This document shows positions 38,938 through 43,284 of a DNA stretch of 64,000 bases, one piece after another; the first letter of the stretch is position 1; every line of letters begins with the position of its first letter. Source of the stretch: an uncultured Planctomycetales bacterium. GTDB taxonomy: Bacteria > Planctomycetota > Planctomycetia > Isosphaerales > Isosphaeraceae. The position numbers were made by a program, and so were the translations under genes. The stretch is taken from contig CAIYJE010000160.1 of the NCBI GenBank assembly GCA_903926465.1, positions 124,001-188,000 on the forward strand, in the 5' to 3' direction. The notes beneath the pieces are model-generated. The model ran no database searches and was not told the DNA's origin. It worked only from the letters and a program-made list of their open reading frames with translations.

Positions 38938-39765
38938 ATGTTGAAGTTTGTGACTTTTGTCGATGGAACCAATCTTGACGGTGTTTTGAAACATTTGAAC
39001 CTTCGTGTCGATGACTATGGGTCTTTCTATCGCCACCTGTTTGATCGTAGCGTTCATGAATGGGGAAAGACGTTTGCCGAGGGGTCCCCTTGGCCACCTG
39101 CCCAGCATGCGAGAATTTACTGGTACGTCGTTGGAAAAATGGACGAGTGGGATCTGGGCGATAGCAAGGCGGAAGGCCGACTGCGGAGCCGATTTGATCT
39201 GAACGCACGGCTTCGTGATAGCTACGTTGAGGACGTGATCCGCCGGTTGCCTGACTGTCCGCCTGAGCGTCGGATGGAAGAGGCCTGGAACTTGTGCTTT
39301 GCGGAAACCCGAGACTGGTACGAAGGCAAGCGGCGGGCCCTTGAGCGGAAGAAGCGGTTCTACCACGGGGTGCAGGCGGCCACCGATTTCATCGAGATCC
39401 GCCAAGAGGGGCACTGGAAGATCGATCTGCTCCACCACACCATCACGGAAAAGGGGCTGGATACCAGCCTGGCCGTCGACATGACGGCCTTGCATGAAAC
39501 CTACGACGTTGCCTTGTTGATTTCAGGCGATGCCGACGGGATTCCCGGTATCAACTATGTGAAAAACCGCTCCAAGCATGTGGGAGTGATCGAATTCCGC
39601 CGGGGGGCCCAATCGGAATTCCCCGGTAAAGGCGCATCGTCTCGACTGAAGATTGCCGCCGATTTTGTAGTCCAGGTTTTTGAAGCCGACCTGATTCGAC
39701 GGAATCTGGCGTATCGAGCAGAACCGGAGTTTGGGGGCATGTCGGGGAGCGAGGCAAACTACTGA
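38938..39765 (+). CDS. NYN-domain (LabA/PIN-like) putative RNase inserted between purL and purQ
   Basis: 275 residues. PIN-like NYN fold: FVDGTN at 7-12 (Asp9, Asn12), EKGLD 171-175 (Glu171/Asp175), a conserved Asp181, and the acidic strand ISGDADG 195-201 (Asp198, Asp200). These four acidic groups are the metal-binding site of PIN/NYN nucleases. The middle (75-150) contains a charged helical insert rich in Arg. It starts 48 bases after purL (AAAGGA ribosome-binding site) and ends in TGATG overlapping the purQ start by one base, so it is translationally coupled to purine synthesis. RNA target unknown; a link to purine control is inference. Confidence 0.87.
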   Translation: MLKFVTFVDGTNLDGVLKHLNLRVDDYGSFYRHLFDRSVHEWGKTFAEGSPWPPAQHARIYWYVVGKMDEWDLGDSKAEGRLRSRFDLNARLRDSYVEDVIRRLPDCPPERRMEEAWNLCFAETRDWYEGKRRALERKKRFYHGVQAATDFIEIRQEGHWKIDLLHHTITEKGLDTSLAVDMTALHETYDVALLISGDADGIPGINYVKNRSKHVGVIEFRRGAQSEFPGKGASSRLKIAADFVVQVFEADLIRRNLAYRAEPEFGGMSGSEANY

Positions 39766-40538: not shown

Positions 40539-40583
40539 TTCTCTTCTGGTCGATTCTCGGTCTGCAATTCGATCAAAACAAAA

Positions 40584-40619
40584 GAAGCCGGTTCCCAGGT
40601 TGGCCTGGGAACCGGCTTC
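40584..40619. terminator. Strong bidirectional hairpin between purQ and spoVG
   Basis: GAAGCCGGTTCCCAGG and CCTGGGAACCGGCTTC are perfectly complementary over 16 bp around loop TTGG. The A-rich left flank (CAAAACAAAA) gives a U-tract for the minus-strand spoVG transcript; purQ may share it. Confidence 0.82.
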
Positions 40620-40657
40620 CGCATTTCAAAGTCGTTCATCAGGTGTAGCGACAGAGC

Positions 40658-41308
40658 TTAGAGCCCTGCGCCAAAGCCGTGGGTATCGCCGCGGTGTTCC
40701 GAGGAAACGCCATCAACGGGAACCTCTCGGCGGCTTGGCGAGTGCGGCCCACGGATCACGGAACTACGATTGTGCTGGGTGTGAGACCGCAGAGGGCCCC
40801 GACGCAGAGGTGGCTGATCTGCCGCCCCTTGCTGACCCATGCTGGGCATCGCAGTTTCGTAGGGGTTCTGATTATCGTAATCGCCTTCGTCGAATTCATC
40901 GTAGCGCGAAACATAGCCCGGCTGCTTGGCACGTTCTAGTTCTTCGGCGTAGGCGGTCAACACGGCTCCCTGGATTTTCTCCCGGCAAGCTGAGTTGATC
41001 GGGTGGGCAATGTCGGCGTGAAGCTTGGCACGTCCTTCAGCGTCACGGAGTGCCCGGTTCTCGTCGAGTCGGCTGCCACAATGGTTGCAGAACCGAGAGC
41101 GTAGATGGTTCTTGGTGCCACAGTGGTTGCAGCGGTCGGTCAGCTTCCGCGAAGGCATGGCGACGAAGAAGCCCTTGGCCCCCTCGATGATCTTCAGGTC
41201 GCGGATGACGAACGAGTCGTCGAACGTTATGCTGCAGAATGCCTGCAACCGCTCGTTGCTTCCCGAGTTGTCTTCCATGAGCTTGATGCGAACTTCGGTG
41301 ATATCCAC
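40658..41308 (-). CDS. spoVG: SpoVG family protein with inserted zinc ribbon
   Basis: 216 residues from GTG 41308, preceded by AAAGGAG. The SpoVG core starts as [13 protein letters not shown] and continues to [16 protein letters not shown] (about 54), but instead of moving directly to DIAHPIN a zinc ribbon (C60-x2-C63, C74-x2-C77; CNHCG twice) and a short charged segment are inserted up to about residue 98, after which the core resumes ([24 protein letters not shown]). The C-terminus (130-216) is Gln/Arg/Pro-rich and likely disordered. SpoVG proteins bind DNA/RNA and act as global regulators in Firmicutes and Borrelia. It lies 32 bases downstream of ispE, like the ispE-purR-yabJ-spoVG order in Bacillus. 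Confidence 0.85.
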
Positions 41309-41340
41309 GGCCGGTACTCCTTTACTCGATGCGCGAGGTC

Positions 41341-42219
41341 TCAAGGTCCGCATGTCACGACTCGGATGCGTCCTACTCCGAGTGTTTCTAGCGCTTGTGC
41401 AACAGCCTCGGCTGAATCCCGATCGGGACACAGTCCGAAGTAGGCTGATCCACTTCCACTCATCATTGATCCGTCGCAAGACGGATCGAGGCACAACAGG
41501 GCGTCCCGGACCTTCGTCAGTTCCGGCACAAGGGACTCGCTCACAGGCTGAAGTCTGTTGAACAAACTCAATCCCAGGCGATCGAGATCTCCCGCTCTGA
41601 AAGCATCCTCGCAAGCCGCGATCGAACGCGGATCGTGGGGAACCCTGACAGATCGGTAGACGTCGGCCGTGGAAACCCCCACACCAGGGCTTACCAGGAC
41701 AACATAGAAGGAAGCTCGGAACGGAATCGGGGTGACAAGCTCACCGCGACCCCTGCAAATTGCAGCCGGCCCATGAAAAAAGAACGGAACATCACTGCCC
41801 AGTTCGGCACCCATGGCCGCTAACTGTGTTTGGGACAGGCCCAAAGACCAGAGCTGGTTCAGGCCGATGAGCGTTGCCGCGGCATCACTTGAACCACCAC
41901 CCAGTCCAGCTTGAACAGGGATCCGCTTTTTGAGTTCGATTGCCGCCCCGGAAGTCCCACCCACCTCACGCCGAAGCCGTTCAGCAGCTTTGATCACCAG
42001 GTTGTCTGGGCCGCAAGAGAGCGATGGGTCATCGCACACCAGCGAAACCGAACCGGTAGCCGAATGCTGAAAACTCAAGAGGTCAGTCAGGCCAATTTCC
42101 ACTGCAAGGGTCTCGATCTCATGGTAGCCATCGCTTCGCTTCGAACGAACTTCCAGAAAGAGATTGAGCTTGGCTGGCGCCAACACGTTGATCCGGTCAG
42201 ATTCCACGCGGACGATCAT
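41341..42219 (-). CDS. ispE: 4-diphosphocytidyl-2-C-methyl-D-erythritol kinase
   Basis: 292 residues. GHMP kinase with [11 protein letters not shown], the ATP-binding [13 protein letters not shown] (near 101-113) and the C-terminal [11 protein letters not shown] motif. Step of the non-mevalonate isoprenoid pathway. I chose ATG 42219 because it has GGAGG upstream and gives a normal length; earlier ATGs at 42312 or 42333 would add over 30 non-family residues. A glycine-coding stretch (GGTGGAGGCGG) lies just before it. It is the first of an ispE-spoVG pair. Confidence 0.88.
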
Positions 42220-42549
42220 GGACGCACCGCCTCCACCACCGCCTTGGACGAGGATGCCGCTCAGTTCACAATCCCTACTGTTCAAATGGATCCAGGTCGC
42301 GTCCACAAACATGGCCGGTTCAGGATCCACCACAGAACGCGGCTGTTTCTATCCCCAAGGCTGAATCGTCGCAATAGGTAAATTTGACAAAACCAACCTC
42401 GATGGCCGATACCAACATAATCTTTCACGCGAAGCCCACGAATTGAGCGAAATCCAAGACCCCTGGCTGAGCCTGCAACAGGCTCCATATGCCCCAGTCT
42501 CTTCTTCACAATTCAGGGTCACCGGCCCCACTCAGACCTGAAACGACGG

Positions 42550-43128
42550 TCAGGAAGAACGCCCAGTGGCCGACCGGCCAGAAAGGCTCGCCTGGACCCG
42601 TTTTAATTCAGCAACCTCGCCAGCGTGACCCGCCGCAAGTGCGCATCGGATCAGCCCATCAATGGCCTGATAGAGGGGCTGGTTGCCATGGCAATCTGGG
42701 GAAAGAAGCCCTTTGAATCCTCTCGGAATCGCTCGCTCAATCAATTCATAGGCATAGCCAAAATGCCCCTTGGCAAGGCTGGGGTCTTTTTCGAGTTCCA
42801 GGGCAATCTGTCCAAGTGCGCAATGAACCCAAAGATGGTCACCACATCCCTCAAGCGCAAACCGCAACATATCCCGGGCCTCTTCAGGCTCACCCTGCCT
42901 CCAGGCATCAAGCGCTTCCTGGTAGTCATCCCAGAGCCTGGCCACGCAGGCAGGGTGAACCAATTCGAATCGCCCTGGGTCCAACTCTTTCAGCGAGATC
43001 CGGGAATGTGCTGGCTGGCCGGCATCGGGATGCTCTGGAGCCCTGCCCCGCCCTGCCGGTCCGGAAGGTGGACGCAACGAGGGACGAGAATTCGGGTCAC
43101 CTGGTCTCAAAGGACGGTTTTTGGACAT
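42550..43128 (-). CDS. TPR-like hypothetical protein
   Basis: 192 residues from ATG 43128. The first 60 residues are Pro/Arg-rich; from about 65 it is helical with TPR-like pairs (DDYQEALDAWRQGEPEEARDMLRFALEGCG, ...WVHCALGQIALELEKDPSLAKGHFGYAYELIERA). Family uncertain. Transcribed away from archease. A GAGCCTG-caa-CAGGCTC hairpin at 42469-42485 lies 65 bases past the stop. Confidence 0.62.
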   Translation of the reverse strand: MSKNRPLRPGDPNSRPSLRPPSGPAGRGRAPEHPDAGQPAHSRISLKELDPGRFELVHPACVARLWDDYQEALDAWRQGEPEEARDMLRFALEGCGDHLWVHCALGQIALELEKDPSLAKGHFGYAYELIERAIPRGFKGLLSPDCHGNQPLYQAIDGLIRCALAAGHAGEVAELKRVQASLSGRSATGRSS

Positions 43129-43284
43129 GATCGTCTCGCCTTTGCACTTCCGCAAAACCTACCGTGTTACGTGTGGGAACAAACCCGCTGCCCAAGTTCT
43201 GCGTAAAATGATTCTATCAATTCCCACCAGAACTTGGGGCGTACCACGCATCAACGGGTGACTTTGATCCCTGAAAGGCAGAGC

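Follow-up and report, generated by a model that had tools for sequence, protein, structure and literature searches.

A predicted zinc ribbon stands between the nucleic-acid-binding determinants of SpoVG in planctomycetes and three further phyla

SpoVG is a widespread regulator whose role, at DNA versus RNA, is still argued. A preliminary description of the DNA analysed here (the window, a whole stretch of 64,000 nucleotides from an uncultured Planctomycetales bacterium) pointed to a SpoVG gene with its conserved core split by a four-cysteine insert, which raises the question of what this insert is, how far it is distributed and what it could add to a nucleic-acid-binding protein.

The spoVG coding sequence (40658..41308, minus strand) comprises 216 amino acid codons and a stop in an uninterrupted frame, and we judge the gene to be real. 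Its GTG start is inferred from homologues together with an AAAGGAG sequence resembling a Shine-Dalgarno site (41317..41323, minus strand), read from the sequence 8 bases before the GTG. Directly upstream lies the reading frame of ispE, a GHMP kinase (41341..42333, minus strand), the end of which is separated from the spoVG start by 32 bases in the window, and the two genes are likely to be co-transcribed. Beyond the stop codon, between the convergent spoVG and purQ genes, is a terminator-like hairpin of 17 pairs followed by a T-rich stretch (40583..40620, minus strand). A hairpin search returned 3 sites against 2.0 expected, with this stem far the longest and very stable (z -5.75), and it is probably a terminator common to both genes. 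Two other frames in the neighbourhood may be recorded: a gene for an NYN-domain protein (a putative nuclease; 38938-39765, plus strand) between an apparent purL and purQ, its end overlapping the start of purQ, and, upstream of ispE, a 201-codon frame (42550-43155, minus strand) for which there was no Pfam match at an E-value of 0.001.

The translation that was searched, 217 amino acids including one residue preceding the start, matches the SpoVG profile PF04026 at 92.9 bits (cut-off 29.6) over 80 profile positions across residues 3-122, which upholds the view of a SpoVG core divided by an insert. The NCBIfam model for the septation regulator SpoVG (NF009749) reaches 88.1 bits in two stretches, below its cut-off of 108, the insert having broken the match in two. 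SpoVG chains in the PDB align to both halves of the protein. In an AlphaFold model built with 99 sequences the core is confident, and it resembles the SpoVG crystal structures overall at Z 11.7-12.8; the match to Bacillus subtilis SpoVG (2ia9_F) has Z 12.8 over 86 residues at 2.7 A. Binding determinants have been mapped in Staphylococcus and Borrelia SpoVG: according to the portions of the study available to us, mutants showed K50-R51 of the S. aureus protein to be essential for DNA binding, and helix residues 66-71 determine specificity (Jutras 2013, PMC3688583). By alignment to a PDB chain, the equivalent of the K50-R51 doublet is R54-K55 (41144..41149, minus strand), and that of the specificity hexapeptide S66-E71 is residues 106-111 (40976..40993, minus strand), the DIAHPIN strand and C-terminal helix together occupying residues 99-127 (40928..41014, minus strand; placed by alignment and model). 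Planctomycete ribbon forms nearly all have such a doublet, [RK][RK] after MPx being present in 80 of 83.

Between AMPSRK and DIAHPIN the window protein carries 43 residues (56-98; 41015..41143, minus strand) with the pattern C-x2-C-x10-C-x2-C, CNHCG occurring at residues 60-64 and again at 74-78. Canonical SpoVG had been described as running straight from AMPS to DIAHPIN; this needs correction, since in five SpoVG genes a loop of 7 residues stands between the MPS-and-doublet motif and DIAHP/DIVHP, and the net insert is therefore 36 residues (43 versus 7). The ribbon proper, C60-x2-C63-x3-N67-x6-C74-x2-C77 (41078..41131, minus strand), was delimited from Pfam zinc-ribbon matches, models and conservation. 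The insert follows the RK doublet immediately and ends ahead of the specificity hexapeptide, so that the alignments support a ribbon placed, in the chain, exactly between the two mapped DNA-binding determinants. The suggestion that the insert lies beside the nucleic-acid surface accordingly holds along the chain, with the doublet on one side and the hexapeptide on the other.

That the insert is a zinc ribbon is supported by its conservation, by Pfam matches close to threshold, by a model of high confidence and by the resemblance of its fold to C4 zinc fingers, and this prediction of the preliminary description stands. In the window protein PF13240 and PF12773 score 24.5 bits (cut-off 25) and 26.1 bits (cut-off 27.3), and in a whole-genome search the same ribbon scores 27.4 bits, above the PF13240 cut-off. 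The Cys half of the ribbon is modelled with AlphaFold block means of 92 (residues 61-70) and 97 (residues 71-80), the later half of the insert lower (87 and 65), and the ribbon modelled alone has a pLDDT of about 90 across its Cys half. Top fold matches of the lone ribbon are largely C4 zinc fingers (RanBP2-type, eL40, ArnA and MDM2), many of them superposing 22-28 residues at roughly 1-1.5 A; their E-values are weak, 0.1 or worse, and Z reaches 3.4 at most for this very small ribbon. Compared with the PDB as a profile, the ribbon finds a generic double zinc ribbon protein best (6.6e-10) and the ribosomal zinc ribbon protein eL40 at an E-value of 0.0039. Conservation and models place the four cysteines in the two knuckles of a C4 fold; they lie within the confident part of the model, as would suit a common metal.

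A survey of PF04026 homologues across planctomycetes showed that the insert is the rule in this group. We obtained 96 planctomycete loci by PF04026 match or by place, partly overlapping (L076 and L086 represent a single gene, and L001 stands for that of the window). The profile matches 89 of them, and 86 of those 89 have the four cysteines; of the three exceptions one (L048) is a copy with a broken frame and two (L055, L056) are short, divergent paralogues. In the seven loci that the profile does not match are short paralogues that have diverged even further. Across the phylum PF04026 finds matches in 172 of 294 genomes, and among the matches listed (150 places) all span 336-378 bases, compared with about 240 for a canonical match. 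Weaker places were checked in 20 of the genomes with an unlisted match or further copies: short paralogues that have diverged are among the further matches there, and for two of the 20 (G096, G173) they were all that was found. Close relatives carry the gene as well, with PF04026 matches in 39 of 40 near relatives, some of which are also in the phylum set. The insert is therefore no local accident or sequencing error, as it recurs across planctomycete loci. Some planctomycete genomes also have SpoVG-like paralogues that are short, divergent and ribbon-less (L049, L050, L054-L060).

A pattern scan over one genome per species, which requires AMP..K and the first CxxC and so finds ribbon forms only and says nothing of absences, returned at least 120 stretches, at least 109 of which encode SpoVG and 11 of which are chance matches. 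The second CxxC is present in 108 of the at least 109 and the remaining one is cut by the end of the piece. By title, among the matches listed, 85 are planctomycetes and 20 Omnitrophota, with one each from Desantisbacteria, Vermiphilus, a PVC-group bacterium and 'Bacteroidales'. Rows of our two ribbon alignments were selected for both CxxC pairs, and Cys invariance there holds by construction, as does that of AMP..K and the first pair among the stretches of the pattern scan; the counts free of such selection are those of the 96 loci and of the distinct cores from the PF04026 searches. Four of 87 distinct planctomycete cores were scored as lacking the ribbon, L096 only through a trimming artefact.

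The insert itself has been reported before (Gupta et al. 2012, PMC3444138), as a planctomycete signature indel of 32-36 residues that, according to the available parts of the article, does not occur in other groups; the main text of that article contains the word 'zinc' 0 times and names no function for the insert. Beyond planctomycetes, our searches found the insert in genomes that bear the titles Omnitrophota, Desantisbacteria and Vermiphilus, and more widely in the phyla to which these belong. Within the Omnitrophota phylum PF04026 matches 88 of 117 genomes, where the best match spans at least 330 bases in 72, is partial with excess length in one (G428), scores high over 243-279 bases in 8 and is short and divergent in the other 7. 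All 4 genomes searched from the phylum that includes Desantisbacteria carry the ribbon. In the phylum of the Vermiphilus-titled genome (Vermiphilus is Babelota per NCBI, and the title may be wrong) 28 of 35 genomes match, 27 of them over 348-360 bases and one split at contig ends, and the four cysteines are present in 13 of 13 distinct sequences read. Chloroflexota, a candidate outgroup, gave no SpoVG of any kind in 201 genomes. As far as we searched (titles and abstract openings of the open-licence literature, in which neither a SpoVG zinc module nor the insert outside planctomycetes was found), the zinc-ribbon identity and the wider range are new.

A mobile origin was considered and rejected. 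Matches were found in 12 phage and 10 plasmid records, 11 and 9 of which span both sides of the insert position in 198-261 bases and are therefore without the insert; matches H12 and H22 end before it, the loop at the H22 locus being of 7 residues. The phage and plasmid SpoVG is thus the short form, and no mobile gene was seen among the genes neighbouring spoVG in the window. Seven IMG/VR 'viral' contigs (L097-L103), which may be viral or host, encode ribbon SpoVG, the stretches in L098 and L100 encoding the same protein.

Judged from sequence, the ribbon form is a SpoVG orthologue and not a paralogue. Where the locus extends far enough, an ispE motif precedes spoVG in 39 of 70 cases in planctomycetes and in 14 of 18 in Omnitrophota, and a glmU motif follows it in none of 65 and in 8 of 14, respectively. 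Of 16 loci whose gene order was read, three from Omnitrophota (L119, L127, L152) have ispE-spoVG-glmU-prs-rplY-pth, genes being named by sequence reading, an order close to that of Bacillus. A tree built from the core after deletion of the insert, resting on about 80 residues and weak at its deep nodes, places the forms of Omnitrophota, Desantisbacteria, AB1 and the Vermiphilus phylum together with one planctomycete-titled contig (support 97). Eight of the 40 matches in loci L224-L263 are Omnitrophota SpoVG that lack the ribbon but otherwise look like orthologues, and the tree joins these eight to 11 sequences with the ribbon (support 85), in a clade nested among Omnitrophota that carry it; the tree fits a single gain of the ribbon with later loss. 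One Fusobacterium sequence is placed among the planctomycetes, probably through long-branch attraction.

Several single loci deserve mention. An Omnitrophota SpoVG (L245) has an 18-residue loop without Cys, perhaps a decayed ribbon. Omnitrophota genomes often hold a second, short SpoVG-like gene without DIAHPI (L229, L230, L231), as exemplified by L231, GMPRHQGKDGKWYDTV. A contig titled 'Bacteroidales' (L134) has a planctomycete-like SpoVG and one titled 'Planctomycetales' (L148) is grouped with Omnitrophota in the tree; both are probably mis-binned or mis-titled.

Residues of the ribbon other than cysteine are conserved to different depths. The PF04026 searches yielded 83, 4, 23 and 13 distinct four-Cys sequences from the four phyla (planctomycetes, the Desantisbacteria group, Omnitrophota and the phylum of G448), and K/R66 is present in 81, 4, 19 and 13 of them, respectively. 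In the planctomycete ribbons N67 is found in 83/83, R/K70 in 72/83 and N75 in 68/83. For R/K70 and N75 the figures elsewhere are 1 and 1 of 13 in the phylum of G448, 1 and 2 of 4 in the Desantisbacteria group, and 12 and 16 of 23 in Omnitrophota. For comparison we used 30 other ribbons from related genomes, gathered by family search since the loci themselves supplied a single one: where SpoVG has R70, 2 of these have R/K and 12 have D/E, and the median net charge of the 18-residue ribbon is +3 in SpoVG versus -1 in the control (p ~1e-14, with rows that are not independent). The basic non-Cys face is strongest in planctomycetes, as R70 and N75 are not kept outside them, and by the same comparison these two residues are not ancestral. 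Conservation of K66/N67 may be structural. The rarity or mixed occurrence of R70/N75 outside planctomycetes weakened the idea that the ribbon had been an RNA clamp from the start in every phylum.

The C-terminal tail of about 89 residues (40661..40927, minus strand) had been put down as some 80 disordered residues. Model confidence is low here (AlphaFold block means of 50-60), but the tail has an acidic stretch and ..RGPH motifs kept in near relatives, and short conserved motifs that extend to its last residues. A frameshifted tail was rejected, as relatives have the same motifs and the same end. This end, FGAGL (40661..40675, minus strand), is an instance of F[GSA]xG[ILVM], which closes 84 of 106 distinct planctomycete tails of at least 40 residues. 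A first motif, [FY][GA]xG, fitted 69 of 107 long tails and was widened after its misses were viewed; because the motif was picked from the sequences and the rows share ancestry, the counts are descriptive. The widened motif ends 0.04% of shuffled tails, 2 of 64 short planctomycete tails, none of 4858 other open frames of at least 100 codons, and none of 6 long and 35 short Omnitrophota tails. A motif kept at the extreme C-terminus of a tail that changes fast argues for a docked partner, and by analogy with SSB the conserved tip suggests partner docking.

What, then, could the ribbon do? On the sequence and model evidence, we hold it slightly better than an even bet that this is a clade-wide SpoVG in which a zinc ribbon at the groove loop gives a second nucleic-acid contact and the tip recruits a partner. 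The four cysteines would hold one structural zinc, and in the SpoVG dimer each subunit would have its ribbon projecting at the groove, offering the second contact, probably to single-stranded RNA, through K66/N67, with R70 and N75 adding to the predicted contact in planctomycetes; a partner protein would be recruited by the flexible tail through the FGxG[IL] tip. Such a protein would serve as an RNA- (or DNA-) binding regulator, like SpoVG elsewhere; the Listeria monocytogenes protein binds RNA, and ssDNA weakly, according to the available part of that study (PMC4959528). For the ribbon itself an added nucleic-acid contact, probably to RNA, appears the most likely role. The preliminary description had offered a binding surface or a redox switch: the former gains from the basic, conserved non-Cys residues of planctomycetes and nothing was found for the latter. 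Counting against a contact, some Omnitrophota SpoVG are without the ribbon, and most of the RanBP2/NZF fingers matched were solved with Ran or ubiquitin and not with RNA.

The same structures speak for the ribbon as a protein-protein docking module (for example for RNA polymerase, the ribosome or an RNase) in place of a nucleic-acid contact, a tenable if rather unlikely alternative. It is also favoured by R70/N75 not being kept in all phyla, and the docking-like tip of the planctomycete tail makes partner binding likely somewhere in the protein; the location of the ribbon in the chain between two mapped nucleic-acid determinants and its basic character in planctomycetes argue the other way. 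It is very unlikely that the ribbon is purely a structural stabiliser or a neutral lineage marker without a function of its own. Such a marker would agree with its report as a plain signature indel, in the available parts of the article (PMC3444138), and with the eight ribbon-less Omnitrophota. However, the four cysteines and K/R66 recur through the distinct sequences of four phyla, and almost all planctomycete SpoVG sequences that were read have kept the ribbon. A zinc- or redox-sensing switch, in which zinc loss or a disulphide would reshape the adjacent groove and turn binding off, is possible but unsupported and also improbable: only position favours it, in that four cysteines beside a groove could be oxidised, while some carriers are anaerobes by name (Brocadia and Scalindua), the non-Cys conservation is left unexplained and no sensor-type gene context was seen.

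Returning to a contact with nucleic acid, one may go further and speculate, with low expectations, that planctomycete SpoVG is a two-handed RNA hub, in which the dimer groove and a zinc-ribbon clamp for ssRNA would together bind transcripts and the F[GSA]xG[IL] tip, at the end of a flexible linker, would recruit a processing partner, much as SSB recruits partners through its C-terminal tip. Planctomycetes are not known to use FtsZ for division, so that SpoVG could not be needed there for classical septation.

These findings have practical consequences. The published planctomycete-only claim for the insert, as it stands in the available text (PMC3444138), no longer holds, which bears on its use as a taxonomic marker. 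A natural variant with a ribbon between mapped determinants offers a clean test of which nucleic acid or target is gained or lost, and the conserved tip could be used as bait for a putative partner.

Set against known systems, the window protein has in common with Bacillus, Staphylococcus and Borrelia SpoVG (PF04026; 2IA9, 2I9X, 2I9Z) the core fold, AMPS[RK][RK], DIAHPIN and the C-terminal helix, and differs from them in the 43 residues with a predicted zinc ribbon that replace the 7-residue loop, in a tail with a conserved tip, and in falling below the NCBIfam SpoVG equivalog cut-off. Its insert is the same as the signature indel described by Gupta et al. in the available parts of the 2012 article (PMC3444138), here read as a zinc ribbon and found in three further phyla. 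With the RanBP2-type zinc finger (PF00641; ZRANB2, RBM5) it shares the spacing Cys-x2-Cys-x3-Asn-x6-Cys-x2-Cys and a similar fold, but strict membership was rejected because, despite the spacing and the Asn, the Trp before the first Cys is absent (position 58 is D) and PF00641 scores 11.5 bits against a cut-off of 27. With ribosomal eL40 the insert has in common a ribbon of the form C-x2-C-x2-[KR]-N-x-[LI]-R-A...C-x2-C-G, which in eL40 belongs to a free-standing ribosomal protein, whereas in the window it is set into the core of SpoVG.
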